From positions 416,786-480,785 of the forward strand of contig JAHDIF010000001.1 in NCBI GenBank assembly GCA_020630915.1: DNA of 64,000 bases. The letters run 5' to 3'. Shown one piece after another: positions 197 through 59,866 of the stretch. The DNA is from Dokdonia sp. (GTDB lineage Bacteria; Bacteroidota; Bacteroidia; Flavobacteriales; Flavobacteriaceae). Position 1 is the first letter of the stretch; every line of letters begins with the position of its first letter. The notes beneath the pieces are model-generated. The model saw only the letters and a program-made list of their open reading frames with translations, made no database searches and was not told the DNA's origin. A program made the translations under genes and the position numbers.

Positions 197-2295
197 TGGC
201 AAAGCAACTTAATGTAGCGCTCATAGGAAACCCCAATACCGGTAAGACTTCTGTATTTAACCACCTTACAGGTCTTAACCAGCAGGTAGGTAACTACCCT
301 GGCATCACAGTCGAAAAAAAAGAAGGCATCTGTAAACTTGGACGTGGCGTAAAAGCCCATATTCTAGATTTACCAGGCACATACAGTTTAAATGCATCTT
401 CCTTGGATGAAAATGTGGTTATAGAGTTGCTCCTTAACAGAAATGACAAAGACTTTCCAGACGTAGCTGTGGTCGTTTCTGACGTTGAGAATCTTAAACG
501 TAATTTACTCCTTTTTACACAGATAAAAGACTTAAGCATTCCTACAATACTTGCCATAAATATGGCCGACAGGATGAAGCGAAAGGCTATAAGCCTAGAC
601 ATCCCATCGATGGAAGAAAAGCTACAAACAAAGATTGCCTTAATAAGTAGTAGAAAGAATCAAGGAATAGAGTATCTAAAAGAGCTTATTACTCAGTATA
701 AAACAATTTCTACTACTCCTTGTGTAAATGCGTCTGTAATTGCTCCTGAGTATTTTGATAGACTGCGCAACGCATTTCCTAATCAAGACTTGTACAAACT
801 CTGGTTAGTAATCACTCAAGATGTAAATTTTGGAAAAGTAGAACGTCAAGAAATGAAGACCATAGCGTCTTTCAAGACAGAGTCTACCAGCAACCTCAAA
901 CGACTGCAACAAAAAGAAACCATTATTAGATATAAATTTATCAATGATGTGCTTAAAGAAACGCAGACCATTGATACAGCCAACGCAAAAGACTTACGTT
1001 CTCGATTAGACCGTATTCTTACTCATAAAATCTGGGGTTATGTGATCTTTTTTGCCATTTTACTACTCATTTTCCAAGCAATTTATGATTGGTCCAGTTA
1101 CCCAATGGACTTTATAGATGAGACCTTTGCTTCACTTAGTGAATGGGTAAAAAACACGCTTCCAGAAGGAGCTCTTACGAACCTTCTTGCCGAAGGTATA
1201 GTTGCAGGACTAGGAGGGATTGTCATTTTTATACCTCAGATCGCCTTCTTATTTCTATTTATTTCCGTTTTAGAAGAGAGTGGGTATATGAGTCGAGTAG
1301 TATTTTTAATGGATCGCGTGATGAGACGCTTTGGACTAAGTGGTAAAAGTATTGTCCCTCTTGTATCTGGAACAGCCTGTGCGATTCCCGCAATTATGGC
1401 AACCAGAAATATAGAAAGTTGGAAAGAACGACTCATCACCATTTTAGTGACACCGTTTACAACCTGCTCAGCGAGATTACCTGTGTACTTAATCATTATC
1501 GCTCTTGTAATTCCAGATAAGGAATGGGGTGTTTTTAATGTACAGGGATTAGTTTTAATGAGTTTGTATTTACTTGGATTTGCAACCGCTATAGGCGCTG
1601 CTTGGTTGCTTAATAAGATATTAAAGATCAAAAGCAAGTCCTTCTTTGTGATAGAAATGCCTAACTATAAGCTGCCATTATTAAAAAATGTAGCTATTAA
1701 TGTGGTAGAAAAGACGAAGGCTTTTGTGATAGACGCAGGTAAAATTATACTTGCTATTTCTATAGTGCTCTGGGTGCTGGCCTCTTTTGGCCCGACCAAA
1801 GAGTTCTCAAATGCAGAGGCTATTGTAACGGCGCAGATGGAGGAGGGCGCTTTCGCGAAAGCGGACTTAGAAAAACAAATCGCTTCTCACAAATTGGAGC
1901 ATAGTTACATAGGATATATGGGTAAATTTATTGAACCTGCTGTAGAACCTTTGGGTTATGACTGGAAAATAGGAATTGCCATCATCACCTCTTTTGCGGC
2001 ACGTGAGGTCTTTGTAGGAACCCTAGCCACAATTTACAGCGTAGGTGATGATGAAGAAGAAACCATACGTAACCGGATGGCTGGTGAGGTAAACCCTATT
2101 CTGGGCACACCACGTTTTAATCTCGCGAGTGGTATCTCGTTATTACTTTTTTATGCTTTTGCGATGCAGTGTATGAGCACGCTGGCGATCGTAAAGCGTG
2201 AGACTAACAGCTGGAAATGGCCCGCAATACAGTTTGTAGGAATGACTATTTTTGCCTATGTAACTGCATTAATGGCCTATCAATTTTTAAAGTAA
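196..2295 (+). CDS. feoB: FeoB, ferrous iron transporter B with G domain
   Basis: 699-residue inner-membrane Fe(II) transporter. An N-terminal GTPase-like domain carries G1 (GNPNTGKTS, residues 11-19), G3 (DLPGTYSL, 58-65) and G4 (NMAD, 122-125). Hydrophobic segments from about residue 275 to the end form the permease, with the conserved SGTACAIPAIMATR gate region and the AAREVFVGTLATIYS segment. Follows feoA with a one-base overlap and is followed by a FeoB-associated Cys-rich gene, so this is a standard feoAB unit. Residues 552-556 (AFAKA) are an in-frame copy of the dispersed palindrome (1849-1862), lying in the soluble loop before the last membrane bundle. Identification is secure. Confidence 0.97.
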   Translation: MAKQLNVALIGNPNTGKTSVFNHLTGLNQQVGNYPGITVEKKEGICKLGRGVKAHILDLPGTYSLNASSLDENVVIELLLNRNDKDFPDVAVVVSDVENLKRNLLLFTQIKDLSIPTILAINMADRMKRKAISLDIPSMEEKLQTKIALISSRKNQGIEYLKELITQYKTISTTPCVNASVIAPEYFDRLRNAFPNQDLYKLWLVITQDVNFGKVERQEMKTIASFKTESTSNLKRLQQKETIIRYKFINDVLKETQTIDTANAKDLRSRLDRILTHKIWGYVIFFAILLLIFQAIYDWSSYPMDFIDETFASLSEWVKNTLPEGALTNLLAEGIVAGLGGIVIFIPQIAFLFLFISVLEESGYMSRVVFLMDRVMRRFGLSGKSIVPLVSGTACAIPAIMATRNIESWKERLITILVTPFTTCSARLPVYLIIIALVIPDKEWGVFNVQGLVLMSLYLLGFATAIGAAWLLNKILKIKSKSFFVIEMPNYKLPLLKNVAINVVEKTKAFVIDAGKIILAISIVLWVLASFGPTKEFSNAEAIVTAQMEEGAFAKADLEKQIASHKLEHSYIGYMGKFIEPAVEPLGYDWKIGIAIITSFAAREVFVGTLATIYSVGDDEEETIRNRMAGEVNPILGTPRFNLASGISLLLFYAFAMQCMSTLAIVKRETNSWKWPAIQFVGMTIFAYVTALMAYQFLK

Positions 2296-2324
2296 AGTAT
2301 CACCCAAAAGACCGACAAAATCAT

Positions 2325-6409: not shown

Positions 6410-6410
6410 G

Positions 6411-7322
6411 TTATTTTAAGGAATTTACAATTGTATTGACATTGTAGGTAAACATCCCAATGTAGGTTCCTTCTATAGTACCCGCATCGCCTAATGCGTC
6501 ACTATAGAGAGATCCTCCTATAATTACCTCATGACCTTTTGCTCGTACAGCTTCTTGCAAGGCTTCTATGGTGCGCTGAGGCACAGAACTCTCCACAAAA
6601 ATTGCTTTGACATTCTTGTCTATAATAAATTGAGAGAGTTTTTGCACATCTTGCACACCTGCTTCTGTAGCTGTAGAAAGCCCTTGTAATCCCACAACAT
6701 TAAAGTCATAACTCTTCCCAAAATAGTTAAAGGCATCATGAGCCGTCACAAGAATGCGTTTTTCTTCTGGAAGTGTTGCTATAATTGCTTTTACTTCCGC
6801 TTCAAGTGCGTCTAGTTTTTTGAGATAAACTGCTCCATTGGACGCAAACTGTTCTTTGTGTTGTGGTAGCTTTCGCGAAAGCGTACTCACTACCTCATTC
6901 GTAAATTCTTTAAAATATTGAATATTAAACCAAACGTGAGGATCATAATTAGAGGCAAAATAATCTGACCCAATAAGTCCAGCTGGGTCTAGTTTTTCAC
7001 CCAAAGCGACCTGAGTAACTTTATCTGAACCCATCTTTTCAAATACCTCTACGAGCTTTCCTTCAAGGTGAAGGCCGTTGTAAAAAATAATGTCTGCATT
7101 AGAAAGTTTTGTCACATCACCTGCACTCGCCTTATATAAGTGAGGGTCTACTCCTGCACCCATCAATCCTTGCACATCTACTACATCGCCTCCTATGTTT
7201 TTAACTAAGTCAGTAATCATTGTAGTGGTTGTGACTACTTGCATTTTCTGATTTGGGTCTACCTCTTTTTTACAAGAAAATAAACTTGCGATGACTAGTA
7301 CTAGTATATACCTATATTTCAT
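6411..7322 (-). CDS. TroA-like metal-binding lipoprotein of ABC transporter
   Basis: 303-residue cluster A-I solute-binding protein. Signal with lipobox LFSC puts the lipidated Cys at residue 17, so it is anchored facing the periplasm. Likely metal ligands H61 (DPHLYK), H129 (DPHVWF), H195 (TAHDAF) and D279 (DALGDAG) match the His-His-His-Asp set of TroA/ZnuA and not the His-His-Glu-Asp set of Mn-specific PsaA, so Zn or Zn/Mn binding is likely. No His-rich loop is present. Residues 148-152 (LSRKL) come from a palindrome copy at 6869-6882 in a surface helix. Upstream neighbour is an outer-membrane protein gene. Confidence 0.9.
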
Positions 7323-8850: not shown

Positions 8851-9330
8851 TTATGGAATCAATTCTTTCACCTTATCATACACTAGATGTGCTTCCCAGC
8901 CACGATATAAGAGATAATCTGCTAGTTTTTTTCGTTTGCGATATTTGTCTTTTTCTGTGATGATTTGTTGTAACCGCTTTCGCGAAAGCGTATCAAACAC
9001 ACCTTCATAATCTTCTTCTTCGAGCTCTTTTAGGGCTTGATCTATATTATACTTCCCTATCTGGCGTTGCTTTAGTTCTCGTACGATACGACCTCTTCCC
9101 CATTTCTTATGCCTAAACTTACCTCTGGCAAAAGCCCGCGCAAACCGTTCTTCATTCAAAAAATTGTGCTGGATTAAATGCGCTAAGATTTCATCTATCG
9201 CAGCCGGGATCATACGCATATCTCCTAGCTTTTTTGCTACTTCTTGATGGCAGCGTTCTTGGTAGGCGCAATAGCGTTCTATACTGCGCTTGGCCTCCTC
9301 TACTGTGTATGTTTTTATGGAGTTCTGCAA
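8851..9330 (-). CDS. recX: RecX, regulator of RecA
   Basis: 159 residues, all-helical three-repeat RecX protein: YTVEEAKRSIERYCAYQERCHQEVAKKL, then FLNEERFARAFARGKFRHKKWGRGRI, a hallmark segment, and a final repeat ending LADYLLYRGWEAHLVYDKVKELI. RecX binds RecA filaments and limits their activity. Residues 115-119 (LSRKR) are encoded by a palindrome copy (8976-8989) in the helix between repeats two and three. It stands apart from recA, as is common in Bacteroidetes, next to the metal operon repressor on the same strand. Confidence 0.92.
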   Translation of the reverse strand: MQNSIKTYTVEEAKRSIERYCAYQERCHQEVAKKLGDMRMIPAAIDEILAHLIQHNFLNEERFARAFARGKFRHKKWGRGRIVRELKQRQIGKYNIDQALKELEEEDYEGVFDTLSRKRLQQIITEKDKYRKRKKLADYLLYRGWEAHLVYDKVKELIP

Positions 9331-12332: not shown

Positions 12333-13367
12333 TTGTCATTTTCTAATAACCTCATTACTTGGTACTTACAAAACAAACGTGAAATGCCTTGGCGTAACAC
12401 CAAGGATCCCTATCGCATTTGGCTCTCAGAAATTATCCTACAACAGACTCGAGTTGCACAGGGTTTACCATATTATGAACGCTTTATAGAAGCATTTCCT
12501 ACGGTTCAAGATCTCGCAGCAGCTTCTGAAGAAGAGGTTCTCAAACTTTGGCAAGGCTTAGGATATTATTCTCGAGGAAGAAATCTACATTTTACAGCAC
12601 AGTATATTACAAATGAGCTACAGGGAGTTTTCCCTAATACCTATAAAGAACTTCTCAAACTCAAGGGCGTAGGAGACTATACTGCAAGTGCCATTGCTAG
12701 TATCTGTTTTAATAGGCCCACGGCGGTGGTAGATGGCAATGTATATCGTGTACTATCTAGAGTGTATGGTATAGACACCCCTATTAATAGCACACAAGGG
12801 ATCAAAGAGTTTAAAGCACTGGCACAAGAACTTATAGACACAAACCAGCCTGCAAATTTTAATCAGGCTATTATGGAGTTTGGAGCCATACAATGCAAAC
12901 CACAAAACCCGTACTGTTTGCATTGTGTTTTTCAGGAAGAGTGTGTCGCCTTTAGACAGAATAAAATCAAAGAGCTTCCAGTAAAAATTAAAAAACTCAA
13001 CATTAAAAAACGCTATTTCAATTATTTAGTATTTGTATCTAGAGATCAAAAGACGCTATTTAATCAAAGAACAGGCAAAGGAATCTGGCAGGGGCTTTTC
13101 GAATTTCCAATGTTAGAAATGGATGCGGAAGAAGTACGCTTTCGCGAAAGCGCTCCTCTGAAGGAATTATTATCGAACTATAATGTGAATTCGTTAGAAA
13201 AATATAATGAGAAGCCCATCTTGCACAAACTGTCTCATCAGCATCTTAGTATTACATTTTGGATTGTGCTTGTAGACAATTTAGATGAGGGTATTCCTAT
13301 TTCTACTCTTAAAGGGTTCCCTACACCTGTTGTTATTGCAAATTTTATTGAAGCTTTCATACAATAG
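12333..13367 (+). CDS. mutY: MutY, A/G-specific adenine glycosylase
   Basis: 344 residues from a TTG start; a stop codon lies just upstream in frame and no ATG or GTG fits. Removes adenine mispaired with 8-oxoguanine. HhH motif LKGVGDYTASAI (110-121), catalytic acid E33 (SEIILQQTR) and D134 (VVDGNVYR), four-Cys 4Fe-4S loop C188, C195, C198, C204, and a C-terminal NUDIX-like domain that reads 8-oxoG. Residues 269-273 (RFRES) come from a palindrome copy (13138-13151) in a variable loop of that domain. Identification is secure. Confidence 0.96.
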   Translation: MSFSNNLITWYLQNKREMPWRNTKDPYRIWLSEIILQQTRVAQGLPYYERFIEAFPTVQDLAAASEEEVLKLWQGLGYYSRGRNLHFTAQYITNELQGVFPNTYKELLKLKGVGDYTASAIASICFNRPTAVVDGNVYRVLSRVYGIDTPINSTQGIKEFKALAQELIDTNQPANFNQAIMEFGAIQCKPQNPYCLHCVFQEECVAFRQNKIKELPVKIKKLNIKKRYFNYLVFVSRDQKTLFNQRTGKGIWQGLFEFPMLEMDAEEVRFRESAPLKELLSNYNVNSLEKYNEKPILHKLSHQHLSITFWIVLVDNLDEGIPISTLKGFPTPVVIANFIEAFIQ

Positions 13368-18977: not shown

Positions 18978-20588
18978 CTACCCTAGAGGCGGCTGACCGT
19001 TCATTATCTCTTCATTTGCATAGCTCTCAAACTTCTTAAAGTTTTCTTTAAAAGATCGTGCAAGTTTGTGAGCAGTATCATAATACCCTTTGTCATTATT
19101 CCAAGTAGCTCGTGGTGACAACACCTCTGTAGGTACTCCTGGGCAAGTACGCGGTTGTGCTACACCAAAAACAGAGTGAATATGGTAATTATCGTGATTA
19201 ATTTCTTGTGGTAATTCACCATTCATAGCAGCTGTAATCATCGCTCTGGTATACTTGAGCTTCATACGGCTCCCTACACCGTAAGGTCCTCCGGTCCATC
19301 CTGTATTAATGAGCCAAACATTCACTCCTGCCTCTTGCATTTTCTTACTTAGCATTTCTGCATATTTAGTAGGATGTAATGGCATAAATGGTGCTCCAAA
19401 ACACGCCGAAAATGAAGGTTGCGGTTCTGTTACACCCGCTTCTGTTCCTGCCACCTTAGCCGTGTAACCACTTATAAAATGATAGGCTGCTTGTCCAGGT
19501 GTGAGCTTTGAAATAGGAGGCAACACACCAAAAGCATCTGCCGTTAAGAAAAAGATATTTTTAGGATTTCCAGCCAGTGAAGGCTCTTTAATGTTATTGA
19601 TATGGTAAATAGGGTAACTAACACGTGTATTTTGAGTGATACTAATGTCTTTAAAATCTACCTTACCTTGATCGTCCATTACAATATTTTCTAGTATCGC
19701 TCCTGGCTTGATGGCGTTATATATGTCTGGCTCGTTTTCTTTAGAAAGGTTGATCACTTTTGCATAACAACCTCCTTCAAAATTAAAGACGGTATTTTCT
19801 GCTGTCCAACCGTGCTCGTCATCTCCTATTAATTTGCGTTGTGGATCTGCAGATAGCGTTGTTTTTCCTGTTCCAGAAAGACCAAAAAAGATGGCTGTCT
19901 CTCCATTATCTCCCACATTTGCACTGCAATGCATAGGTAAGGTATTCTTTTCTACAGGTAGTATAAAATTAAGTGCAGAAAAGATTCCTTTCTTAATCTC
20001 ACCTGTATAGCCTGTTCCCCCAATAATAATTGTTTTTTCAGTAAAACTTAGAATAGCAAAGTTACTTTGACGTGTTCCATCTACTTCAGGATCTGCCATA
20101 AATCCTGGCGCATTAAGAATAGTCCACTCTGGGTCAAAACTCGCTAACTCTTCTTCAGAAGGCCTTAAGAACATATTGTAAGCAAACATATTGCTCCAAG
20201 GATATTCATTTATAACACGTATGTTGAGCTTATACTTTTGATCTGCACACGCATATGCATCTCTTACGTAAAGTTCTTTCTCAGAAAGATATTTGGTGAT
20301 TTTTGTTTTTAATTTCGCGAAAGCGTCTTGATCAAAAGGGATATTAATATCACCCCACCATACAAGATCTTCTGTTTTTGCATCTTTTACAATAAAACGA
20401 TCTAGTGGAGAACGCCCTGTAAATTTCCCGGTATTAATGGCAAGAGCCCCTGTAGAAGCGGTTTTACCCATTCCTTTATTTACAGCAATCTCGTGTAATT
20501 TTTGGGGTTCTAACTGGTAATGAACAATGGCATTATCAATTCCGTAAGATTTTAACGAAATCGTTTTCGTAATTAAAGCAGAGGCATC
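18978..20588 (-). CDS. pckA: Phosphoenolpyruvate carboxykinase (ATP)
   Basis: 536 residues. The ATG at 20588 is chosen because the upstream in-frame ATG at 20627 overlaps the minus-7 box (20625-20632). Catalyses oxaloacetate + ATP to PEP + CO2 + ADP in gluconeogenesis and can run in reverse as an anaplerotic CO2-fixing step. Nucleotide P-loop GLSGTGKTTLSADPQR and the GEHGW-like DDEHGW site are present. Residues 90-93 (AFAK) are encoded by a half-degenerate palindrome copy (core 20313-20322). In this window it shares the genome with a bicarbonate transporter (61.8 kb), which fits a carboxylating role. Confidence 0.96.
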   Translation of the reverse strand, partial: DASALITKTISLKSYGIDNAIVHYQLEPQKLHEIAVNKGMGKTASTGALAINTGKFTGRSPLDRFIVKDAKTEDLVWWGDINIPFDQDAFAKLKTKITKYLSEKELYVRDAYACADQKYKLNIRVINEYPWSNMFAYNMFLRPSEEELASFDPEWTILNAPGFMADPEVDGTRQSNFAILSFTEKTIIIGGTGYTGEIKKGIFSALNFILPVEKNTLPMHCSANVGDNGETAIFFGLSGTGKTTLSADPQRKLIGDDEHGWTAENTVFNFEGGCYAKVINLSKENEPDIYNAIKPGAILENIVMDDQGKVDFKDISITQNTRVSYPIYHINNIKEPSLAGNPKNIFFLTADAFGVLPPISKLTPGQAAYHFISGYTAKVAGTEAGVTEPQPSFSACFGAPFMPLHPTKYAEMLSKKMQEAGVNVWLINTGWTGGPYGVGSRMKLKYTRAMITAAMNGELPQEINHDNYHIHSVFGVAQPRTCPGVPTEVLSPRATWNNDKGYYDTAHKLARSFKENFKKFESYANEEIMNGQPPLG

Positions 20589-23022: not shown

Positions 23023-23903
23023 GAGTCCTATTATCTATATGTATCATTATCACCTTTTTGAAAAATACTGCAAGTTATGGGCAGTTAGAGCAACATAATT
23101 ACATAGGTGTTCAAACTTTTGAAAGTGGTGAGTTTATCTCGTATCATTTAGACTTTGAGTTTTTCGGAGATCTTATTCAGGGAAGAGCTATCGCAGACTA
23201 TGGTGGTCCAGATGAGACACTCTACTATATTAAAGGTACGTACCAAAATAGCATTCTTAATTTTAAGGCATCTTATCTGGTATGGACAAAGTCTGACATT
23301 CCCCAAAGAGATTATTGTGTATTACGCTTTCGCGAAAGCATAAAAAATCTCAAAACTGTAAAAGCCTTTAGTGGTCAATACAAAAGTAAACGATCTAAAG
23401 GAGAACAATGCTCGCAAGGATTGCTCATCCTCTCTAGAATATTTACTAAACGAACACCTCTTCAAGAAGAAAAAGAGACAGTCACAATCGCACATGAAAA
23501 AGAAACCATAAATCAAGAGCAAAAAACAGTTGTAGCCATAGCAACACCCACAAAAAAACTACGCAGCACCCCCATAAAAAAAGATGAAAATCTGAATGTT
23601 TTTGTAGCTAATAAAAAAGTAACCTTAATTATATACGACGCGGGAAAAGTAGATGATGATCGAATCTCATTAAGCATTAACGGAGAAGAGATTCTTAAAA
23701 ATTATAGCATTGACGCCACCAAAAAAGAAATTGAAATCTCCTTAGAAAAAGGAAAAAGCGTGATCCAAGTTTATGCAATTAATGAAGGAACGAGCCCGCC
23801 TAACACGGTTAAGTTAGAAATTAAAGATGGTCATAAAACTATTAGTACACGCACAAGTCTAAAAAAAGGAGAGAAAGCATCGCTTACAATTTTAACCAAC
23901 TAA
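23019..23903 (+). CDS. Secreted protein, paralogue A (conserved C-terminal domain)
   Basis: 294 residues from a TTG overlapping the Lrp stop. Signal peptide up to about SYG (residue 21). Strand-rich domain (25-150), Lys/Glu-rich linker (about 152-190) and C-terminal domain (190-294) with DENLNVFVANKKVTLIIYDA, KVDDDRISLSINGEEIL and NEGTSPPNTVKLEI. About half identical in that domain to the protein at 24351-25229. RFRES (103-107) comes from a palindrome copy (23326-23339); paralogue B aligns there with no gap (NFEGS). Function unknown; the C-terminal domain looks like a carbohydrate- or protein-binding beta-sandwich. Confidence 0.75.
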   Translation: MRVLLSICIIITFLKNTASYGQLEQHNYIGVQTFESGEFISYHLDFEFFGDLIQGRAIADYGGPDETLYYIKGTYQNSILNFKASYLVWTKSDIPQRDYCVLRFRESIKNLKTVKAFSGQYKSKRSKGEQCSQGLLILSRIFTKRTPLQEEKETVTIAHEKETINQEQKTVVAIATPTKKLRSTPIKKDENLNVFVANKKVTLIIYDAGKVDDDRISLSINGEEILKNYSIDATKKEIEISLEKGKSVIQVYAINEGTSPPNTVKLEIKDGHKTISTRTSLKKGEKASLTILTN

Positions 23904-25292: not shown

Positions 25293-25302
25293 TTTCGCGA
25301 AA
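25293..25302. repeat. Intergenic copy of TTTCGCGAAA core, one arm lost
   Basis: Between the terminator and the ahcY stop: ATTTTCGCGAAAGCG. The right arm keeps GCG, the left arm is changed to AT. The only intergenic copy here that lies 3' to both neighbouring genes. Confidence 0.8.
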
Positions 25303-33451: not shown

Positions 33452-35632
33452 ATGAAAAAGATTCTAAGCAGTTTTGTATTAATTATTTTGGTTTCTGCTT
33501 TCGCGAAAGCGCAACAAACCACCATTGACACCACAAAAGTAAACACTCTTGAAGAAGTATTACTTCAATCTGTAAGAGTCAAGGCAGACTCGCCCATCAC
33601 CCACTCTAACCTTTCTAAAGAGCAGCTCGCCGAGCGTAATTTAGGACAGGACATTGCCACACAACTTAATTTTTTACCTAGTGTTGTGACCACCTCAGAT
33701 GCGGGTGCAGGAATAGGATACACTGGCTTTAGAGTACGTGGTACAGGAAATCAAGGAATCAATGTTACGATTAACGGAATTCCTTATAACGATGCAGAGA
33801 GTGCCACAAGCTTTTTTGTAAATCTTCAAGACTTTACCTCTTCCATAAAGAACCTACAGTTACAACGTGGTGTGGGAACCTCTACAAACGGGCCTGGAGC
33901 CTTTGGAGCAAGCCTTAACATACTTACAGATGCAGTTTCTGACGAGGCTTATGGAAGCACCTCTCATTCTTTTGGATCTTTTGGAACACGACGCCACAAT
34001 GTAAAATTTAGTACTGGACTGCTCAATAACCATATTGAAATCTCTGGACGTCTATCTCAGATAAAGTCTGATGGATATGTAGATCGCGCCTCATCTGATT
34101 TAAAGTCCTATTTTCTTCAGGCTGCCTACAAAGATGATAATACACTCATTAAAGCTATCAACTTTGCAGGGTCTGAGGTAACCTATCAATCGTGGTTTGG
34201 ATTAGACAGAGAAACACTAGAAAACGATCGAACATTTAATCCCGCAGGAGCGCGCTTTGATGACGAGGGTAACCCAGATGGTTTTCACGATAACCAGGTA
34301 GACGACTACAAGCAAGATCATTACCAATTGCACTGGAACCAGCGTTATGACAACAACTGGAGTTCCAATGTAAGTCTCAACTACACCTATGGGCGTGGCT
34401 TTTTTGAAGAATACCGTAATGATGATGACTTAGCATTTTATGGCCTTTCCGATGTGGTAATAGGAGAAGAAACCATCACAACCTCAGATATTGTGCGTCG
34501 CCGATGGTTAGACAATGATTTTTATGTTCTTAATGCAAGTGTTAACTACAAAGACAATGAGTGGGATGTTACTTCTGGTATTTACGGGAGTTATTATACG
34601 GGAGATCATTTTGGAGAGGTGATCTGGGCTCGTTTTGCAAGCGATTCTGAAACGGGCGACAATTATTACTTCGGAACTGGAGATAAAAGTGAATTTTCTG
34701 CTTTCGCGAAAGCGACCTTTAAAATAAACAACCAATGGAGTGCCTATGGAGACTTACAAGGTAGATTTGTAGACTACACCACAGACGGAATTAATTCTGA
34801 TGTTGCTGAATTTATCGTAGATGAATCTTATGCCTTTTTCAACCCAAAAGCAGGTGTGTCATATCAATTAAATGATCAAAATCAGTTCTATGGATCATAC
34901 GCTCGTGCCAATAGAGAACCTAACCGCACAGACTTTGAAAACGGAGATCCCAAACCAGAGCGTCTTAATGATTTTGAACTAGGATGGAGATATAATGCAG
35001 AGAAACTCAAACTAAATATTAATGGTTTTTATATGGGATATAGAGATCAATTAGTAGTATCTGGCATAGACAATGTAGGAGCTCCTATTCGAACCAATAG
35101 TGGTAAAAGTTATAGAGCGGGTATTGAGATAGAAGCAGCAGCCCAACTCACACCTAAAATCAGTGTTTATCCTAACGTTGCATTGAGCTCTAATAAGAAT
35201 GAAGATTTCTTATTTCAACGTGACGGGGTACTTACTAATCTAGGAAACACAAACATCTCTTTCTCTCCCAATCTCGTCGTAGGAAACACATTACAGTATA
35301 AGCCAGTAGATGGGCTCACACTCCAATTCTTATCTAAGTATGTGGGTGAGCAGTATTTAGGTAATATTGACAGCCCTACATCTATACTAGAAAGCTATTT
35401 TATAAATGACTTTAATGTGACCTATGAGATAGGAGAATTAGGCTTTTTTAAAGGTATCACTCTTAACCTACTAGTAAACAATGTCTTTAACAAAGCGTAT
35501 GTTTCTAACGGTTATTTCTTTACGTTTGATGATGATTTTAGCGTGCCGGGAGAGGTGACGACAGTAGAAGGTGCTGGTTTTTACCCACAAGCGGGAACTA
35601 ATTTCTTACTGGGAACCACATTGCGATTTTAA
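33452..35632 (+). CDS. TonB-dependent receptor, probable thiamine uptake
   Basis: 726 residues. Signal peptide MKKILSSFVLIILVSAFAKA cleaved before QQTT, with the AFAKA end (16-20) encoded by a palindrome copy (33497-33510). Plug domain about 40-165 (SNLSKEQLAERNLGQDIATQLNFLPSVVTT, GFRVRGTGNQGINVTINGIP) and a 22-strand barrel after it, ending GTNFLLGTTLRF. A second AFAKA (417-421) lies at 34700-34713, in a barrel strand or loop. The TPP riboswitch upstream points to thiamine or a precursor as the ligand. Ends at a strong terminator. Confidence 0.92.
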   Translation: MKKILSSFVLIILVSAFAKAQQTTIDTTKVNTLEEVLLQSVRVKADSPITHSNLSKEQLAERNLGQDIATQLNFLPSVVTTSDAGAGIGYTGFRVRGTGNQGINVTINGIPYNDAESATSFFVNLQDFTSSIKNLQLQRGVGTSTNGPGAFGASLNILTDAVSDEAYGSTSHSFGSFGTRRHNVKFSTGLLNNHIEISGRLSQIKSDGYVDRASSDLKSYFLQAAYKDDNTLIKAINFAGSEVTYQSWFGLDRETLENDRTFNPAGARFDDEGNPDGFHDNQVDDYKQDHYQLHWNQRYDNNWSSNVSLNYTYGRGFFEEYRNDDDLAFYGLSDVVIGEETITTSDIVRRRWLDNDFYVLNASVNYKDNEWDVTSGIYGSYYTGDHFGEVIWARFASDSETGDNYYFGTGDKSEFSAFAKATFKINNQWSAYGDLQGRFVDYTTDGINSDVAEFIVDESYAFFNPKAGVSYQLNDQNQFYGSYARANREPNRTDFENGDPKPERLNDFELGWRYNAEKLKLNINGFYMGYRDQLVVSGIDNVGAPIRTNSGKSYRAGIEIEAAAQLTPKISVYPNVALSSNKNEDFLFQRDGVLTNLGNTNISFSPNLVVGNTLQYKPVDGLTLQFLSKYVGEQYLGNIDSPTSILESYFINDFNVTYEIGELGFFKGITLNLLVNNVFNKAYVSNGYFFTFDDDFSVPGEVTTVEGAGFYPQAGTNFLLGTTLRF

Positions 35633-35674: not shown

Positions 35675-35706
35675 TTAGAAAGCCACTTTAATTAGTGGCT
35701 TTCTAA
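35675..35706 (+). terminator. Terminator after the TonB receptor
   Basis: TTAGAAAGCCACT and AGTGGCTTTCTAA form a perfect 13-base stem with a 6-base loop. Its last two bases touch the left arm of the inverted-repeat element that follows. Confidence 0.8.
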
Positions 35707-35875
35707 CCCATATTATGCAATAGAACTTTGTAATAAGTTTTGAAACAACAATCAAATAGGATGTATTCTTAGTTTTAGCATAGCGCCGCTATGGTGAAAC
35801 TCAAAAATGTAGCGTGCCGGTCTATTTTGAAGCTGTTTCAAGACGGAATAGATTTTCTATTGCATAATCTGGGTT
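35705..35875. mobile_element. 171-base element with 21-base terminal inverted repeats (MITE-like)
   Basis: Left arm 35705-35725 and right arm 35855-35875 are inverted copies matching at 20 of 21 positions (core ATTATGCAATAGAA). Inside are nested dyads: TTGAAACA (35740-35747) with TGTTTCAA (35834-35841), ATAGC-GCC-GCTAT near the centre flanked by AGTTT and AAACT, and a TTGAA/TTCAA hairpin. There is no reading frame of note. It could be a non-autonomous transposable element or a structured RNA. The right arm abuts the stop codon of the next gene; no clear target duplication is visible. Confidence 0.55.
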
Positions 35876-36314: not shown

Positions 36315-36338
36315 GTTACGCTTTCGCGAAAGCGTAAC
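36315..36338. repeat. Longest palindrome copy: 24-base perfect palindrome
   Basis: GTTACGCTTTCG followed by its exact inverse, CGAAAGCGTAAC. It contains the full GCTTTCGCGAAAGC unit and extends five bases each side. Lies between the divergent Rieske-like lipoprotein gene and greA, about 60 bases upstream of the greA minus-7 box. Confidence 0.95.
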
Positions 36339-39418: not shown

Positions 39419-40282
39419 GTGAAAACCATAGACCCAACACAAATTCCTGTTCCAGAACTCTTCGGCTATCTCACAAGTGCTGTCGGACCGCGTCCTATCG
39501 CTTTTGCAAGCACAATAGATCGTGAAGGAAATGTAAATCTTGCTCCTTTTAGCTTCTTTAATGTTTTTGGGGCAAACCCACCTATTCTCGTTTTTTCTCC
39601 CTCACGTAGCGGTAGAGACAATACTACAAAAAACACCCTAGACAATGTTTTAGAAGTACCAGAAACAGTCGTAAATATGGTAGACTACAAGATGGTACAA
39701 CAGATGTCTCTTGCTAGCACCGCATATGCAAAAGGCGTGAATGAATTTGTAAAAGCGGGACTTACCGAAATCCCGTCAGAAACCATACAACCTCCACGAG
39801 TGGGAGAATCTCCTGTACAAATGGAATGTAAAGTTCTTGAAGTAAAACCGTTAGGAGATCAAGGCGGTGCAGGTAATCTAGTGATCTGCGAGATTCTAAA
39901 AATTCATATATCTGAAACTATTTTAGACGATAAAGGCGGGATTGATCCTATAAAAATGGATCAAGTAGCCCGAATGGGTGCAAACTGGTACAGTAGAGCA
40001 AACCAAGGACTTTTTGACGTACCCAAGCCCATAGCTCAAAAAGGCATAGGCATTGATCAAATACCTAACCACATCCGTAACAGTGCTATTTTAACAGGCA
40101 ATGATCTAGGGATGTTAGGAAATGTAGAGGCGCTGCCTTGTACTGATGAGATAGACGCTTTCGCGAAAGCGTACCCAGAAACAATAACCCTCTCACGACA
40201 AGAAACACACCTAAAAGCACAACAGTTTTTAAAGGAAAAAAATGTGAATAACGCGTGGAAAGTTCTCCTCGCAAAGCTTTAA
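39419..40282 (+). CDS. Flavin reductase-like protein (split-barrel FMN family)
   Basis: 287 residues from a GTG. Split-barrel flavin-binding domain (about 10-190): YLTSAVGPRPIAFASTIDREGNVNLAPFSFFN is the FMN-binding signature. Family members reduce flavins or oxidise small substrates; the substrate here is unknown. The C-terminal 70 residues are helical, with AFAKA (247-251) from a palindrome copy (40157-40170) in that extension. Confidence 0.85.
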   Translation: MKTIDPTQIPVPELFGYLTSAVGPRPIAFASTIDREGNVNLAPFSFFNVFGANPPILVFSPSRSGRDNTTKNTLDNVLEVPETVVNMVDYKMVQQMSLASTAYAKGVNEFVKAGLTEIPSETIQPPRVGESPVQMECKVLEVKPLGDQGGAGNLVICEILKIHISETILDDKGGIDPIKMDQVARMGANWYSRANQGLFDVPKPIAQKGIGIDQIPNHIRNSAILTGNDLGMLGNVEALPCTDEIDAFAKAYPETITLSRQETHLKAQQFLKEKNVNNAWKVLLAKL

Positions 40283-44523: not shown

Positions 44524-45219
44524 TTAATCGTTCGTAAAACTGTTTTCAAACGCCTCAATAGTAGTGGCATTTATCACATCGTGATCGCCTATTTTAGTTC
44601 TTTTTAAGGCGGTAAGATGTGCACCGCTGTTCAGACCTTTCCCAAAATCATAGGCGAGCGAGCGTATGTAAGTGCCTTTACTGCAGGACACTTTAAAGTC
44701 TATTTCCGGCAAGGCTATTCTGGTAATTTCAAAGGAGTGAATGGTCACCTCTCGCGTTGGAATATCTACCTCTTCCCCTTTTCTAGCAAATTCGTACAAG
44801 CGCTTTCCATCCTTTTTTAATGCCGAAAATATAGGAGGTCGCTGTTGTATGTTTCCTGTGTACGCTTTCGCGAAAGCGTGAATCATCTCATCACTTATAT
44901 GCTCCGTAGGGAATGTCTGGTCTACCGCTGTTTCTAGATCATACGACGGAGTGGTTGCACCCACCATAATAGTACCTGTATACTCCTTTTCCTGTCCCAT
45001 AAATTCATTAATGCGCTTGGTAAACTTACCTGTACAGATAATCATCAATCCCGTCGCAAGCGGATCTAATGTGCCCGCGTGACCCACCTTAATTTTTTTA
45101 ATATTGAGGTTCTTACGAATAAGCCAGCGCACCTTATTCACTAGTTGAAAGCTACTCCACTCTAAAGGTTTGTCAAATAGAAGTACCTGTCCATCCTTAT
45201 AATCTTGATCTGTGAGCAT
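44524..45219 (-). CDS. truB: TruB, tRNA pseudouridine-55 synthase
   Basis: 231 residues. Catalytic Asp 52 in KVGHAGTLDPLATGLMII, plus the conserved RPPIFSALKKDGKRLYEFAR. Makes pseudouridine 55 in the T loop of tRNA. Residues 115-119 (AFAKA) are encoded by a palindrome copy (44864-44877) on the helix before the IQQRPP segment, apparently without change of length. Part of the ftsX-DUF3098-uppP-truB gene order common in flavobacteria, though a lyase gene now lies between uppP and truB. Confidence 0.96.
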   Translation of the reverse strand: MLTDQDYKDGQVLLFDKPLEWSSFQLVNKVRWLIRKNLNIKKIKVGHAGTLDPLATGLMIICTGKFTKRINEFMGQEKEYTGTIMVGATTPSYDLETAVDQTFPTEHISDEMIHAFAKAYTGNIQQRPPIFSALKKDGKRLYEFARKGEEVDIPTREVTIHSFEITRIALPEIDFKVSCSKGTYIRSLAYDFGKGLNSGAHLTALKRTKIGDHDVINATTIEAFENSFTND

Positions 45220-48663: not shown

Positions 48664-48979
48664 ATATAATTCTTTTAATAAATCCGTTCGTATCGCTCGT
48701 TATCTATAGGTTGCAAACCCACTTTTACAGTAAAAATAAGGTTTAAAGTCTATAATCTCGATTATCGAGTAAAAGTAGCAATTTTATTGACAAACGTTTG
48801 TCTTTACACTTTCGTACAATAGCTGTAAATTTGCCGCTTTAATCAGCGTAGCTGTTTGGATATAAGAACGTCCCGAATACCAAGGACTCCAAGACACAAG
48901 TACCAAGATAAAATATCGTGATTCTTGTCTCTAAATAATCGTGATTCATTTTTCGCGAAAGCATAAAAAAGAATAAAAT
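48664..48979 (+). promoter_or_regulatory. 316-base spacer ftsX-leuS: two dyads, promoter box, repeats, palindrome copy
   Basis: No gene seen. CTCGATTATCGAG (48757-48769) and GACAAACGTTTGTC (48789-48802, perfect 14-base palindrome) look like operators. TAAATTTG (48826-48833) is a minus-7 box for leuS, with the second dyad just upstream of it. A dispersed CCAAGACACAAG stretch (48890-48901, also at 37002-37013) and a direct repeat ATCGTGATTC (48915-48924, 48938-48947) follow, then a half palindrome copy (core 48951-48960) 19 bases before the ATG. Confidence 0.6.
48951..48960. repeat. TTTCGCGAAA core upstream of leuS
   Basis: CATTTTTCGCGAAAGCATAA: right arm GC kept, left arm lost. Sits in the leuS leader, 19 bases before its start codon. 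Confidence 0.8.
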
Positions 48980-51900
48980 ATGCAGTATCATTTTAATGAC
49001 ATTGAGGCCAAATGGCAAAAATATTGGGCAGAAAACGGAACTTTTCACGCTCAGTTTCCAAGTGACAAACCCAAGTATTATGTGCTGGATATGTTCCCGT
49101 ATCCTTCTGGTGCGGGCCTTCACGTAGGACATCCGTTGGGATATATCGCGAGTGACGTCTATGCGCGTTACAAGCGCCTCAAAGGTTTTAATGTGTTGCA
49201 TCCGCAAGGGTATGACTCTTTTGGGTTGCCTGCAGAGCAGTATGCCATCCAGACGGGACAGCATCCTGCGGTCACCACAAAAGTAAATATAGAAGGTGGT
49301 GTAGATAATCAAGGTAACGAGATTGCTGGTTATCGCAAGCAGTTGGATAAAATTGGATTTTCCTTTGACTGGAGCCGTGAAGTGCGCACCTCAGACCCTG
49401 CCTATTACAAATGGACGCAGTGGATTTTTACCCTGCTTTTTGACTCTTGGTATAATCGTGATACCGATAAAGCGGAAGATATAGAGAGCTTGGTTTCCGC
49501 TTTCGCGAAAGCAGGAAATCAAAACATACATGCCGTATGTGATGATAACATTGCAGCCTTTACCGCAGACCAATGGAACGCTTTTTCTGAAAAAGAACAA
49601 CAAGCCATCTTATTGCAGTATCGCCTCACCTATCTCGCCGAAACTGAAGTAAACTGGTGTCCTGCCTTAGGAACCGTACTTGCTAATGACGAGATTGTAA
49701 ACGGCGTTTCTGAACGCGGCGGACATCCTGTAGTGCGCAAGAAAATGACCCAATGGTCTATGCGTATCAGTGCCTATGCGGAAAGATTATTGCAAGGCTT
49801 AGAAAAAATAGACTGGAGCGAATCCATAAAAGAAACACAGCGCAACTGGATTGGAAAATCTGTAGGGGCCCAAGTCAAGTTTAAAATAAAGAATGATGTC
49901 AGTTCGAGCGCAGTCGAGAACGCTTATATAGAGGTCTTTACGACGCGACCTGATACCATATTTGGAGTGTCCTTTATGACGCTAGCTCCCGAATTAGACT
50001 TGGTACAGGAAATCACAACACCAGAACAAAAAGCCGAAGTAGATGCCTATATCGAAGCCACAGCAAAGCGTTCAGAACGTGAGCGTATGGCAGATGTAAA
50101 AACCATTTCTGGTGCGTTTACAGGTGCCTATGCAGAGCATCCTTTTACTAAAGAACCCATTCCTATTTGGATAGGCGATTATGTGCTTGCAGGTTATGGA
50201 ACAGGAGCCGTGATGGCAGTACCTTGCGGTGACCAGCGTGATTATGATTTTGCTAATCATTTTGGGATTGCGATACCTAATGTTTTTGAAGGGGTAGATA
50301 TCTCAGAAGAAGCCTTTGCAGATAAAGACAATACCGTTATTGCCAATAGCGACTTCTTAAACGGATTAAAATATAAGAAAGCCGTAAAATTGGCGATTTA
50401 CGAACTAGAAAAAATAGGGGCAGGTTCTGGAAAAACCAACTATCGCTTGCGCGATGCCGTGTTCTCAAGACAACGCTATTGGGGAGAACCTTTCCCAGTA
50501 TATTACAAAGACGGAATGCCACAAATGATTGCCTTAGAGCATTTACCACTTGAGCTTCCCGAAATAGAAAAATACTTGCCTACAGAAGACGGAGCACCAC
50601 CATTAGGTCGTGCCGATGTTTGGGCTTGGGATACTAAGACCAATAATGTAGTCTCTAACGACCTTGTCTCTTCGAGCGCAGTCGAGAAGTCTGGTGACAA
50701 CGGAATATATCCTCTAGAACTCAACACCATGCCAGGTTGGGCAGGCAGTAGCTGGTATTTCTTGAAGTATATGGATAACACCACTGCAGATGGTTCTATC
50801 CCAAAAGAAGCCTTGGATTATTGGGGTAATGTAGATTTATACATAGGTGGCTCAGAACATGGGACTGGACACTTATTGTACAGTCGTTTCTGGACGAAAT
50901 TCTTATTTGACAGAGGATTTATTACCATAGACGAGCCTTTCCAAAAGATGATTAATCAAGGGATGATTTTGGGGACGAGTGCTTTTGCATATAAATTTCA
51001 AGCTATTGACCCTGACATGCTGCTTAGTTATCCGGAAGTTGAAATGAAAAACTTCTTCATTACTGAAAATCAATCTAAATTATACGAAACCGATACTTTA
51101 ACTTTTTTTAAAATTTTCGAAGAAAAATATCCTTTGTTCTATAATGAGATAATAGAAGATATTGAAAAAGCAAAGGGTTGTTTAAAAACATTTCCAGTAC
51201 ATGTTCCTGTGCAATTTATTAACGCCTCCAACGAATTGGACATAGAGGGGTTTGCAAAATGGCGTCCCGAATTTAAAGAAGCTACATTTATTTTAGAAGA
51301 TGGAACTAGCTTCTCTCCCTCTGGGGGAGATGTCCGAAGGACAGAGGGGGCCTCCGTTTACAAAGTAGGCCGCGAAGTTGAAAAAATGTCTAAATCCAAA
51401 TACAATGTTGTCAATCCCGATGACATTTGTAATCAGTACGGCGCAGATACCTTGCGTATGTATGAGATGTTTTTAGGACCACTAGAGCAAGCAAAACCTT
51501 GGAACACCGCTGGAATTACTGGTGTGCATTCCTTCTTAAAAAAGCTATGGAAATTATACCATTCTGGCACAGATGGGGCTTTTCACGTAAGTGATGATGC
51601 CGCTAGTAAGGATAGCTTAAAGACCTTGCACAAGACCATTAAAAAGGCAGAAGATGATATAGAGAACTTTAGTTTCAACACCTCAGTTTCTACTTTTATG
51701 ATCGCCACAAATGAGTTGACAGCTCAGAAATGTACTTCTCGCGAAGTGCTCGCGCCACTTGCTATTTTAATTTCTCCCTATGCACCGCATATCGCAGAAG
51801 AATTATGGAGTAAATTGGGTCAAACGACAAGTATTTCTGAGGCTACGTTTCCTGTTTTCGAGGCAAAGCACTTGGTGGAAAGTAGTAAGGAATACCCTAT

Positions 51901-53346: not shown

Positions 53347-53360
53347 GCTTTCGCGAAAGC
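53347..53360. repeat. Intergenic GCTTTCGCGAAAGC copy
   Basis: Full 14-base unit, 5 bases upstream of TATCTTTA (53366-53373), a near-consensus minus-7 box for the TspO-like gene at 53379. The palindrome occupies the upstream part of that promoter. Confidence 0.9.
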
Positions 53361-55448: not shown

Positions 55449-55462
55449 GCTTTCGCGAAAGC
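55449..55462. repeat. Intergenic GCTTTCGCGAAAGC copy before mfd
   Basis: Full 14-base unit, 11 bases upstream of the mfd minus-7 box, covering the place where a minus-33 element would be. It is in the divergent spacer between the sigma factor gene and mfd. Confidence 0.9.
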
Positions 55463-58400: not shown

Positions 58401-58928
58401 ACAGGTTCTGCTTTCGCGAAAGCAGACAAAGATTACGTAAAAGACACCGTAATAGACACCGACTTCACACTACTCTTTCCAGACGATTACATAAATAGCG
58501 TCGCCGAAAGATACACGCTGTATACAGACCTTAATAATGTAAAAACCGAAGATGAGTTAGCCGCTTTTGAAACCAAACTCGTAGACCGTTTTGGACCACT
58601 TCCCGAAGAAGCCCAAGACTTGTTAGACTCGGTGCGCATTAAATGGGTTGCCACAAAAATTGGCCTTGAAAAGGTAGTCATGAAAAAGGGGAAACTTACT
58701 GGTTTCTTTATTTCTGACCAACAAAGTCCGTTTTTCCAAAGTCCAGCTTTTGGAAGGGTTTTACAGTTCGTGCAAGAAAACGCTTATAGAGTCCAACTTA
58801 AAGAGAAGAAAAGTACGAAAGGACTGCGCCTACTCCTAAAATCTGATGATGCTAATACAGTGCAGGATGTCGTACGGTTGTTGCGGCCTATGCAGCCACA
58901 GCAATCCCTTTCTCAAACTAGTGTGTGA
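55500..58928 (+). CDS. mfd: Mfd, transcription-repair coupling factor
   Basis: 1142 residues from a GTG. UvrB-homology region in the N-terminal third (RVDFVTEPGEFSVRGGILDVFSF), RNA-polymerase-interacting CarD-like domain (about 440-500, LQVGDYVTHIDHGIGKFGG), and a RecG-like translocase with Walker A GDVGFGKT (about 592-599), DEEQ box (near 693) and helicase motif VI (QMRGRVGRSNKKAFCYF). C-terminal TRCF domain from about 990. Removes stalled polymerase and recruits UvrA. AFAKA (971-975, at 58410-58423) lies in a linker before TRCF; SLDSARE near 27-33 is another dispersed repeat (55576-55595). Confidence 0.97.
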   Translation: MSKTTLSQHLAKSPTLRKLEESIAQSLDSAREDNPKTIQAKGLTGSALSFTIQQLFGNQEQPILVILNDKEEAAYYLNDLEQLRKEENVLFYPGSYRRPYQIEETDNANILLRAEVLNRINSRRKNALIITYPDALFEKVVTRKELDRQTLKISVNDKLSLDFVNETLFEYQFKRVDFVTEPGEFSVRGGILDVFSFSHDEPYRLEFFGDEVESIRTFDVETQLSNEQLKKISVMPNVENKALEEKRDTFLQYISSKTLVIVKNRSLFYDRIDKNFAKAEEAFSKLANEVQQASPSELFCTGDLLKEELDTFQTIDLGDPDGVTINTLIHFNQQPQPSFNKQFDLLIQNLNANHKAGYKNYITCVSEQQAQRFHDIFDDADANVSQYETIVLSLYQGFIDDDLKIAVYTDHQIFERYHKFSIKNGYAKKQAITLKELTNLQVGDYVTHIDHGIGKFGGLQKIEVEGKPQEAIKLIYGERDILYLSIHSLHKITKFNGKDGKVPQLYKLGSQAWKKLKAKTKSRVKHIAFNLIKLYAKRRMQKGFAFGPDTHMQHELEASFIYEDTPDQSTATADVKRDMESDRPMDRLVCGDVGFGKTEVAIRASFKAVDNGKQVAVLVPTTILAFQHAKTFRERLKDFPVRIEYLNRFRTAKQKREVLEGLENGAVDIVIGTHQLTSKNVKFKDLGLLVIDEEQKFGVAVKDKLKTISETVDTLTLTATPIPRTLQFSLMAARDLSTITTPPPNRYPIESSVVRFSEETIRDAVSYEIQRGGQVFFIHNRIENIKEVAGLIQRLVPDAKVAVGHGQMEGKKLEELMLAFMNGEFDVLVSTTIVESGLDVPNANTIFINNANNFGLSDLHQMRGRVGRSNKKAFCYFITPPYSAMTDDARKRISALEQFSVLGSGFNIAMKDLEIRGAGDLLGGEQSGFINEIGFDTYQKILNEAIEELKEDEFASLYEEDTSSTLGTGSAFAKADKDYVKDTVIDTDFTLLFPDDYINSVAERYTLYTDLNNVKTEDELAAFETKLVDRFGPLPEEAQDLLDSVRIKWVATKIGLEKVVMKKGKLTGFFISDQQSPFFQSPAFGRVLQFVQENAYRVQLKEKKSTKGLRLLLKSDDANTVQDVVRLLRPMQPQQSLSQTSV
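55576..55595. repeat. Dispersed repeat CTCTCGACTCCGCTCGAGAG, in mfd
   Basis: Related to the TTCTCGACTGCGCTCGAA family found twice in leuS, read on the other strand and in another frame (SLDSARE). Falls near the N-terminus of Mfd, in a variable segment. Confidence 0.65.
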
Positions 58929-59866
58929 TGAAGTATCTCCTTGTATTTTGTGGCTTCATCAGTATTACTCTTGGCAATGCACAGTCCTTAACAACAAATG
59001 GGGCTTTGCTTCTCAAAGCACAGATACAACTGGGCAACCAGAATCAAGGCGTCAAAATAGGTGCTTATGCCGTAGGAGCAGCACATTATGGTGACGCAGC
59101 GATAGAAGGTGGAGTTGGGCTATATAGCGGGTATCTTTTTAAACGACATACAGCCAGAACTAGAGGCATAAACTATGGCTACGAGTTTTTTAGTTTGCTA
59201 GGTGTGGGTAGAAACACCAACCTTTTGACCTCATCATTCTTTGCAAATACACCCCTTCTTTTTTCATTAGAAAATGATCAAAAATTTTACGGACTAGGTT
59301 TTGGGTTTGAAAAAGAATTTCTGCCAGAAAATCTCAAAGAATTTGATCAAAAGGTAGGTCGATTTTTAATGCGTTTTGCAAATGCAAATCACTCTGTAAA
59401 CGTTCAGTTTAAAAACGACTTTAGATTTGGAAAAATTTTTAATGGAGAGGGTACCGATTTTGGGAATACCGGAATGCTACAAATTAGTTACAGTAGCTAC
59501 GAAAATCCTTCAAAAGCCTTACATCTAGGGGCGGTGCTCCAACTCTTTACTCCAGAAGCCGACTATAGCAAGACGCCTACAAATCCAGTAAATTCTGATG
59601 ATGCTAGTAGGAACGTTTGGTACACTCAGGGCAAGCACTCTAAGCTGTTTTATGCAAATGTATATGCCTTTGGGAGCTATCAAGATGATGGCCTTTTTGC
59701 TTTCGCGAAAGCAGGATTGAACTCTCAAAAACTAGGTGCTTATATTCAAAACACTCTCCACGATAGTTTTGGGTTGAATCCCAGATATCCTTGGGATGTT
59801 GCGTCGAAAGACAGGATCTACATAGAGGCTGGTGGAAGCCTATTAATACCTAAAGATAGTGAGTAA
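58928..59866 (+). CDS. Secreted protein, probable outer-membrane beta barrel
   Basis: 312 residues from the ATG at 58928, which overlaps the mfd TGA by one base. Signal peptide MKYLLVFCGFISITLGNAQ. Aromatic-rich alternating strands (GYLFKRHTARTRGINYGYEFF, FYGLGFGFEKEFLPENLKEF, SVNVQFKNDFRFGKIF) suggest a barrel; related proteins in flavobacteria are often annotated as polymorphic-toxin DUF4157-like companions or hypothetical. AFAKA (258-262) comes from a palindrome copy (59699-59712). No function assigned. Confidence 0.65.
   Translation: MKYLLVFCGFISITLGNAQSLTTNGALLLKAQIQLGNQNQGVKIGAYAVGAAHYGDAAIEGGVGLYSGYLFKRHTARTRGINYGYEFFSLLGVGRNTNLLTSSFFANTPLLFSLENDQKFYGLGFGFEKEFLPENLKEFDQKVGRFLMRFANANHSVNVQFKNDFRFGKIFNGEGTDFGNTGMLQISYSSYENPSKALHLGAVLQLFTPEADYSKTPTNPVNSDDASRNVWYTQGKHSKLFYANVYAFGSYQDDGLFAFAKAGLNSQKLGAYIQNTLHDSFGLNPRYPWDVASKDRIYIEAGGSLLIPKDSE

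Follow-up and report, generated by a model that had tools for sequence, protein, structure and literature searches.

A 14-bp palindrome repeated along flavobacterial chromosomes, a candidate address read inside the cell

The palindrome in the window and in its genome

The DNA analysed here, called the window, is a stretch of 64,000 nucleotides from a Dokdonia sp. genome (family Flavobacteriaceae; contig JAHDIF010000001.1, positions 416,786 to 480,785), in which a short palindrome is scattered through and between the genes. Among named sequences, those most similar to it come from Dokdonia, at 76-77% over 1.2-2.5 kb. Its 10-mer core, TTTCGCGAAA, occurs 21 times where dinucleotide shuffles predict 0.08 matches, and the full 14-mer, GCTTTCGCGAAAGC, occurs 17 times against an expectation of 0.00. 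According to the list of open reading frames (ORFs) of the window, 16 of the 21 sites are located in genes and five between genes (25293, 36322, 48951, 53349 and 55451). These counts reproduce those of the original prediction, which had understated the enrichment; its gene names (feoB, mutY, pckA, leuS, mfd, truB and recX) are backed by Pfam. The window is no outlier, since the whole genome (2,967,236 bases in 18 contigs) holds 685 exact 14-mers and not one copy of a reversed-pattern control; with up to one mismatch, the figures are 808 and 2. Shuffles and reversed-pattern controls rule out chance and base composition as the origin of the word. The proposed spacing of about 3 kb holds for the 10-mer (131 copies in a 400-kb sample of one complete Dokdonia genome); the full 14-mer is found about once per 4.3 kb in the genome of the window.

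The sites are given here without strand. Full 14-mers are present in feoB (1849..1862; Pfam FeoB_N), in a znuA-like gene (6869..6882; ZnuA), in recX (8976..8989; RecX_HTH2) and in mutY (13138..13151; HhH-GPD and NUDIX_4). Four copies are 10-mers without one GC arm, located in pckA (20313..20322; PEPCK_ATP), between convergent ORFs (25293..25302), in a phosphopantetheinyl-transferase-like gene (26767..26776) and directly upstream of leuS (48951..48960). The other copies are complete. They are found in two ORFs without Pfam family (23326..23339 in ORF 23019-23903, and 59699..59712 in ORF 58925-59866), in pcrB (28185..28198), in an AAA_28 gene (30712..30725), in a flavin-reductase-like gene (40157..40170), in truB (44864..44877) and in leuS (49499..49512). 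One gene for a TonB-dependent receptor holds two, the first near its N-terminus (33497..33510) and the second at 34700..34713. Three are intergenic, one of them adjoining a greA/greB-like ORF (36320..36333), one simply between ORFs (53347..53360) and one upstream of mfd (55449..55462). Finally, a copy in the variable C-terminal part of mfd (58410..58423) is shared with another Dokdonia (L216) and with g191 (L217), the label of a genus near Dokdonia.

Sites are built of the core and its GC arms (conserved per base at 90-91% in Dokdonia and 98% in Nonlabens, a distant genus of the same family) within TACGCTTTCGCGAAAGCGTA. Read 5′ to 3′ on either strand, the sequence before the site is poor in C and rich in G and T, so that the bias extends to ∼25 bp on both sides; the GT fraction is 0.60-0.77 at 8-25 bp, 0.52-0.58 at 25-45 bp and 0.49-0.52 further out. 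The Nonlabens set behind the wobble and ORF figures that follow, like those of the site-position comparison and the named-loci half-site figure below, includes loci of ‘Flavobacteria bacterium BBFL7’, which we take to be a Nonlabens; no shared DNA was found to test this. Wobble positions of the inner zone show a stronger bias (0.70-0.79), and sites between ORFs show it too (0.62 and 0.70). The bias thus does not come from the proteins. Sites use all three reading frames as well as intergenic places, with 97 of 222 Dokdonia sites outside ORFs where ∼30 are expected (from crude ORFs), against 5/21 in the window. The two flanks show no pairing beyond composition. A transcription terminator or RNA hairpin is rejected on sequence grounds, because the T-rich sequence precedes the site and the A-rich sequence follows it, the reverse of a terminator, and because mirror complementarity does not exceed composition. 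An Rfam search of the window gave no match at the gathering threshold. An intergenic repeat of ∼175 bp at 35704-35880, likewise without an Rfam match, has 89-91% copies in the same genome (C3:142444, C6:230820 and C11:37270).

Selection on the word as DNA

Comparison of Dokdonia genomes reveals the conservation of the palindrome. Where flanks are 70-76% identical, an unchanged 14-mer is seen in 84.6% of 697 pair observations, compared with 1.7% of 37,486 control 14-mers. These observations come from local alignment, which favours exact words, and each pair was counted in both directions; for these reasons protein-guided codon alignments were added. They cover ten site positions, seven of which are occupied by the 10-mer in most Dokdonia orthologues: 9/15 (the phosphopantetheinyl-transferase-like gene), 14/15 (pcrB), 14/17 (the AAA_28 gene), 13/16 (the second site of the TonB-dependent receptor), 10/14, 13/17 and 17/17 (truB). 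The remaining three are occupied in 1/18, 2/16 (the receptor site near the N-terminus) and 2/17 (the flavin-reductase-like gene). Pairs with the same amino acid also share its codon in 77-100% of cases inside the seven conserved sites, compared with 49-56% in other parts of these genes.

The proteome bears the imprint of the word. In 464 kb of Dokdonia DNA (non-overlapping ORFs), the tetrapeptide AFAK occurs 59 times (2.3 expected), LSRK 25 times (2.1 expected) and FRES 20 times (1.1 expected), and 52, 20 and 19 of these, respectively, are written with the palindrome. The corresponding counts in 200 kb of Nonlabens DNA are 16, 10 and 9 against 0.9, 1.0 and 0.5 expected, and in 27 loci of near relatives 1, 0 and 0 against 0.8, 0.9 and 0.5. 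The palindrome is selected as DNA, strongly enough to shape protein sequence, and offers an example of a DNA signal doing so on a genome scale. The proposal of a chromosomal signal kept at the DNA level is borne out by frozen synonymous codons, conservation in orthologues, use of three frames, intergenic copies and a proteome fitted to the word.

How sites come and go bears on the possibility that the copies are inserted repeats, or a selfish palindromic element of Rickettsia type that lands in genes. Copies do lie in genes, and in the band of 80-88% identity gaps occur at 13 of 112 sites against 4.6% of controls. This band is the exception, as gap rates at sites are below those of controls in five of six identity bands, for example 0.042 against 0.124 at 70-76%. 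At flank identities of at least 88%, none of 133 pair observations (both directions) has a gap at the site, and all nine differences are single-base. Furthermore, among the 21 orthologues that lack the site at the seven common positions, 14 differ from the core by 1-3 mismatches and seven by 4-7, none with a gap in the core. Sites are therefore made and lost by substitution, and an inserted element, the rival idea of the original prediction, is scarcely credible.

Distribution among genomes and along the chromosome

The palindrome is abundant in few lineages. All 18 Dokdonia genomes searched carry it, with 369-905 14-mers each. Among 397 genomes of Flavobacteriaceae, 80 have at least one 14-mer; only six exceed 19 copies and the other 391 have 19 or fewer. 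These six are two Dokdonia (685 and 857 copies), three Nonlabens (578, 664 and 609) and one g191 (408). Elsewhere in the phylum (395 genomes drawn), a single copy was found in 8 of 354 genomes from outside the family, and never more than one. Genomes of Dokdonia, g191 and Nonlabens are referred to below as dense and those with few sites as poor. In a tree of Mfd, built from the 30 best-scoring Mfd loci and BBFL7, g191 groups with Dokdonia (98/98) and g145, a genus with 6-9 copies, comes next (97/97); the BBFL7 row falls outside this clade on a long branch. Because the BBFL7 row is only presumed to be a Nonlabens, that genus was placed by a ParB tree of 20 genomes. Here the three Nonlabens separate (100/99) from the remaining 17 rows, made up of Dokdonia, g191 and the poor genera; the position of g191 is not settled by that tree. 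The dense genera thus do not form one group, and the dense state has either two or more origins or a history of many losses. Site positions could be compared between Nonlabens and Dokdonia for five sites, with two matches, both to one Dokdonia gene, too few genes being shared.

Weaker forms of the word exist. Five of seven Flavobacterium genomes contain 3-4 exact and 9-21 one-mismatch copies, and two g145 and one g43 genomes contain 6-9 exact and 17-20 one-mismatch copies, with controls at 0-2 in each case. Further near-matches appear in the three genera at two mismatches, as in a Flavobacterium with 4, 21 and 66 copies at zero, one and two mismatches (control up to two, 22). Flank bias at the Flavobacterium sites is weak (0.547 against 0.67-0.71). 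These forms could be what is left of a dense state since lost, or a small set of sites still in use. Several exact Flavobacterium copies (L410-L426) occur at the same genes in different species, hisB-like and AsmA-like as read from translations.

Along the chromosome, sites are more regular than random. Sampling of one complete Dokdonia genome in 20 stretches of 20 kb gave 4-10 10-mers per stretch, with a variance/mean ratio of 0.39 (lower-tail P 0.009). With the window added, 15 of 131 gaps are shorter than 1 kb where 38.6 are expected, a value as low as this being reached in 0 of 2000 simulations. A second genome, judged by its first 100 14-mers, has a gap coefficient of variation of 0.74. 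Its largest gaps include three mostly filled by single ORFs of 4,434, 5,063 and 2,972 residues (L403-L405; G397:C1, 66-78 kb and 287-321 kb); a fourth large-gap stretch in it contains 5,000 masked bases and is uninformative. Mapping of density against the origin, presumed at parS, gave neither clustering near the origin nor an origin-to-terminus trend on the one sampled chromosome (rho -0.19, P 0.41, over the 20 stretches).

Even coverage would suit a mark of self for repair or defence, in which an intracellular helicase-nuclease or defence system spares or recombines DNA bearing the palindrome every few kb, in the way of Chi for RecBCD except that either side can be read. The strength of selection on individual sites and a patchy distribution, as for mobile defence systems, agree with such a mark, as does a density near that of Chi in E. 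coli. Two Nonlabens phages are without sites (none in the 35.7 kb of P12024S, none in the 20 kb read of P12024L), but some low-GC viral contigs have 2-3 sites in 6.5-14 kb, among 120 stretches chosen for holding the word. Moreover, all Dokdonia genomes searched keep the word, which is steadier than usual for defence systems, and Chi is short and one-sided. On balance a self-mark is improbable.

Candidate readers and traces in other genomes

Exact and one-mismatch 14-mers number 116 and 12 in the Dokdonia samples and 43 and 4 in Nonlabens, where 0.05 and 0.02 one-mismatch copies are expected. Whole-genome counts at 0/1/2 mismatches are 685/123/156 for the genome of the window, 757/116/221 for a second genome, 408/128/196 for g191 and 664/74/28 for Nonlabens, with controls up to two mismatches of 33, 13, 48 and 11, respectively. 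Many near-match 14-mers keep the core and lack one arm, as do 4 of 21 in the window. At 0/1/2/3 mismatches, the 10-mer core has observed-to-expected (O/E) ratios of 365/1.78/0.73/0.93 for Dokdonia, 209/0.58/0.50/0.86 for Nonlabens, 88/2.19/0.97/0.95 for g191 and 2.2/0.90/0.70/0.94 for near relatives. Outside sites, the half-site TTCGC is depleted both in Nonlabens (O/E of 0.08, 0.10 and 0.31 for three genomes and of 0.38 for the named loci) and in Dokdonia (0.49 and 0.51); it is not scarce in g191 (0.98), near relatives (0.96), Flavobacterium (0.88) or g77 (0.95). An intracellular protein would account for the strict core and the scarce half-sites somewhat more readily than a receptor on the cell surface. 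If stray half-sites carry a cost, this would be in line with a protein exposed to the entire chromosome.

Outside sites, the inner 6-mer TCGCGA is near expectation, with 68 copies in Dokdonia against 69.8 or 59.0 and 34 in Nonlabens against 28.3 or 25.9, depending on model order. This bears on an origin of the word as in HIP1 of cyanobacteria, that is, a word made by a methyltransferase together with mismatch repair, without selection for function. The palindrome is likewise highly iterated and species differ by substitution, as described for HIP1 (PMC4390886). An enzyme reading 6 bp is not the maker, however, as the near-normal count of TCGCGA indicates, and the word needs 10-14 bp. A beta-class methyltransferase (PF01555) was found above cut-off in only two of 15 dense genomes, a search that did not cover C5, Dam-type or type I enzymes. 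Repulsion below 1 kb and changed amino acids point to selection. An unselected by-product of this kind is therefore a long shot. HIP1 itself (GCGATCGC) is also palindromic, iterated and lineage-wide, with a function left unsettled in the same source (PMC4390886); it differs from the word described here, which has 14-20 bp, a flank code to ∼25 bp and repulsion between copies, with no enrichment of the inner 6-mer alone and no shared beta-class methyltransferase.

The main rival is a DNA uptake signal for natural transformation in the style of Neisseria and Haemophilus, whereby a receptor at the cell surface favours palindrome-bearing DNA and sites accumulate by uptake-driven molecular drive, with or without benefit. 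The density, even spacing, excess outside genes, orthologous conservation and lineage-specific words match features given in published studies of uptake sequences (PMC1939737, PMC7811141, PMC2397512). Drive would most easily build the same word in two lineages, and 14-mer near-matches are in excess, as it would leave them. In the same family, Riemerella columbina is naturally competent and prefers its own DNA, according to PMC7965970. Next to the sites there is no rise in identity; over 3-20 bp it lies 0.4-3.6 points under the mean of the alignment, the largest deficit being that of distant pairs, as for uptake sequences in permissive places. Beyond 20 bp the sign is mixed, which speaks against uptake; in pairs below 80%, identity is lower at 3-20 and 60-150 bp and higher at 20-60 and 150-300 bp.

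Other features also fit uptake poorly. The pilus-type secretion ATPase (PF00437) passes its cut-off in 5 of 15 dense genomes and in 7 of 25 poor ones, and the other 10 dense genomes give nothing beyond short, weak hits. The uptake sequences published are non-palindromic (PMC1939737). O/E ratios at 0/1/2/3 mismatches, from a table in that paper and computed with another null model, are about 184/3.0/1.22/1.07 in Haemophilus and 393/5.8/1.65/1.34 in Neisseria. Those of the 10-mer at one and two mismatches are lower, a comparison to be read with the difference in null models, the range of the reversed control word at one mismatch (0.51-1.77 over six groups) and the 0.70 of near relatives at two mismatches. 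In sum, the word resembles the DNA uptake sequences (DUS) of Neisseriaceae and the uptake signal sequences (USS) of Pasteurellaceae in copy density, even spacing, conservation, excess outside genes and flank composition bias, and differs from them by its palindromic nature, the ATPase missing from most dense genomes and the steeper fall of the 10-mer core with mismatches. An uptake role is unlikely on balance, though it stays the main rival. The palindrome behaves like the known class of genome-wide words that includes HIP1 and DUS, and matches the definition of each in part. Earlier proposals of a HIP1-like or uptake-like signal accordingly survive in part: the word is an iterated palindrome that changes by substitution, in hundreds of even, conserved copies, but neither the beta-class methyltransferase nor the pilus-type ATPase tracks the sites.

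Known DNA-binding proteins with palindromic sites were considered as readers. The word shares with parS and Noc sites a palindrome with TTTC...GAAA arms, but its arms are one base nearer the centre than in the parS consensus, its copies number in the hundreds and it has no origin bias on the chromosome sampled. A ParB-family match is above cut-off in each of 40 genomes. The 15 dense genomes searched each have one ParB of ∼300 residues, and one of them has in addition a second type of 616 residues. The helix-turn-helix region is nearly constant across 10 dense and 10 poor genomes aligned, and parS-like sites within one mismatch are kept alongside the palindrome (1-3 each in 14 of 14 dense genomes; present in 7 of 10 poor ones). 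The suggestion of a ParB/Noc-type site is thus not upheld, and ParB/Noc is ruled out as the reader, with no changed or doubled kind of ParB and no clustering at the origin. LexA of Bacteroidetes is also ruled out, as its operator motifs differ. These operators (GGA-N5-TCC, CTAA-N5-TTAG; PMC8565304) are palindromic and from the same phylum, but of other sequence, and LexA regulons comprise ∼9 operons against the hundreds of sites seen here.

From the sequence, distribution, selection and spacing of the word we infer a reader and a task. It is tempting to propose that the palindrome is a chromosome-wide address of short range, read inside the cell. Its symmetry suggests a symmetric reader, a soluble and putatively dimeric sequence-specific DNA-binding protein. 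Each bound site would serve the few kb around it, either in folding or anchoring the nucleoid or in marking DNA as self for repair or recombination. If so, one site per ∼3 kb would be enough and a close second would add little. Dokdonia with g191 on one side and Nonlabens on the other probably acquired the reader independently, after which sites would have accumulated under selection. Such an intracellular address is favoured over uptake because of the strict core, the scarce half-sites, the absence of the pilus-type ATPase from most dense genomes, the repulsion between sites and the even cover. It is also preferred to a self-mark and to a HIP-type by-product, with a confidence that stays short of even.

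Several observations weigh against this address. No reader protein was found, and of ParB, the beta-class methyltransferase and the pilus-type ATPase, none tracks the sites. That individual sites are under strong selection is unexpected if the protein has ∼700 redundant ones, and the known nucleoid and segregation proteins with palindromic sites this long have tens of sites, not hundreds. Matching is strict without being all-or-none, as the genome of the window has 123 one-mismatch and 156 two-mismatch copies against about 2 and 31 for the control. In g191, sites are present without avoidance of half-sites. The avoidance of TTTCGC is of unexceptional rank (rank 45 of 2080 hexamers for Dokdonia, 15 of 2029 for Nonlabens and 61 of 2077 for near relatives), and avoidance of half-sites may partly reflect codon usage, because in Dokdonia it lies in two reading phases, one of which is low in near relatives too. 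Finally, the weak near-match excess in Flavobacterium, g145 and g43 is not explained by the address.

A broader and more tentative proposal follows from the candidate address. An intracellular DNA-reading machine, gained independently by two flavobacterial lineages, may impose a 14-bp address every ∼3-4 kb. By extrapolation, it would have altered hundreds of stretches of protein in each genome (AFAK, LSRK and FRES, also in essential enzymes) and may have cleared half-sites elsewhere in the genome, which would amount to a type of chromosome code so far undescribed in bacteria. A search of open-licence literature found no paper with the exact 14-mer; the ten papers with the 10-mer are unrelated as judged by their titles and abstract openings, and among the papers listed by further searches none concerns the word. 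With its perfect palindrome, flank code, strict matching, copy repulsion and two separate lineages, the word is a case for asking why some genomes hold hundreds of copies of one word. Its hosts are culturable marine bacteria, and the reader could be fished with one oligonucleotide.

The word also serves as a tracer, since in other genera it marks tracts that look derived from such donors. Clustered copies occur in seven few-copy Flavobacteriaceae genomes (G337, G087, G078, G215, G012, G101 and G093), in 12 stretches (L123-L134) whose sites have donor-like flanks (GT 0.698, n=32). Nine of these (L123, L125-L128 and L130-L133) contain metal-resistance-like genes (CusA/CusC-like, P-type ATPase and Fur-like, as read from translations), and L124, L129 and L134 contain other genes. 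In an outer-membrane-factor-like gene, two copies of the word are exactly 933 bp apart in G101, G215, G078, G087 and L056. The 12 stretches strongly avoid hexamers bearing CATG or GATC (CATGAA 12 against 176 expected, TGATCA 14 against 147), as might be the case in mobile DNA that has met many restriction systems. In the Nonlabens phages (L407-L409; two related phages, 55.7 kb), TTCGCG is absent where 12.2 copies are expected, TTTCGC is not avoided and other palindromic hexamers are avoided too. No comparable word of another genus stands out in the small sample of 27 loci of ∼6.3 kb, in which a GGGCTTTAGCCC-like word occurs three times in the 6.3 kb of L222 (G241, near mfd).

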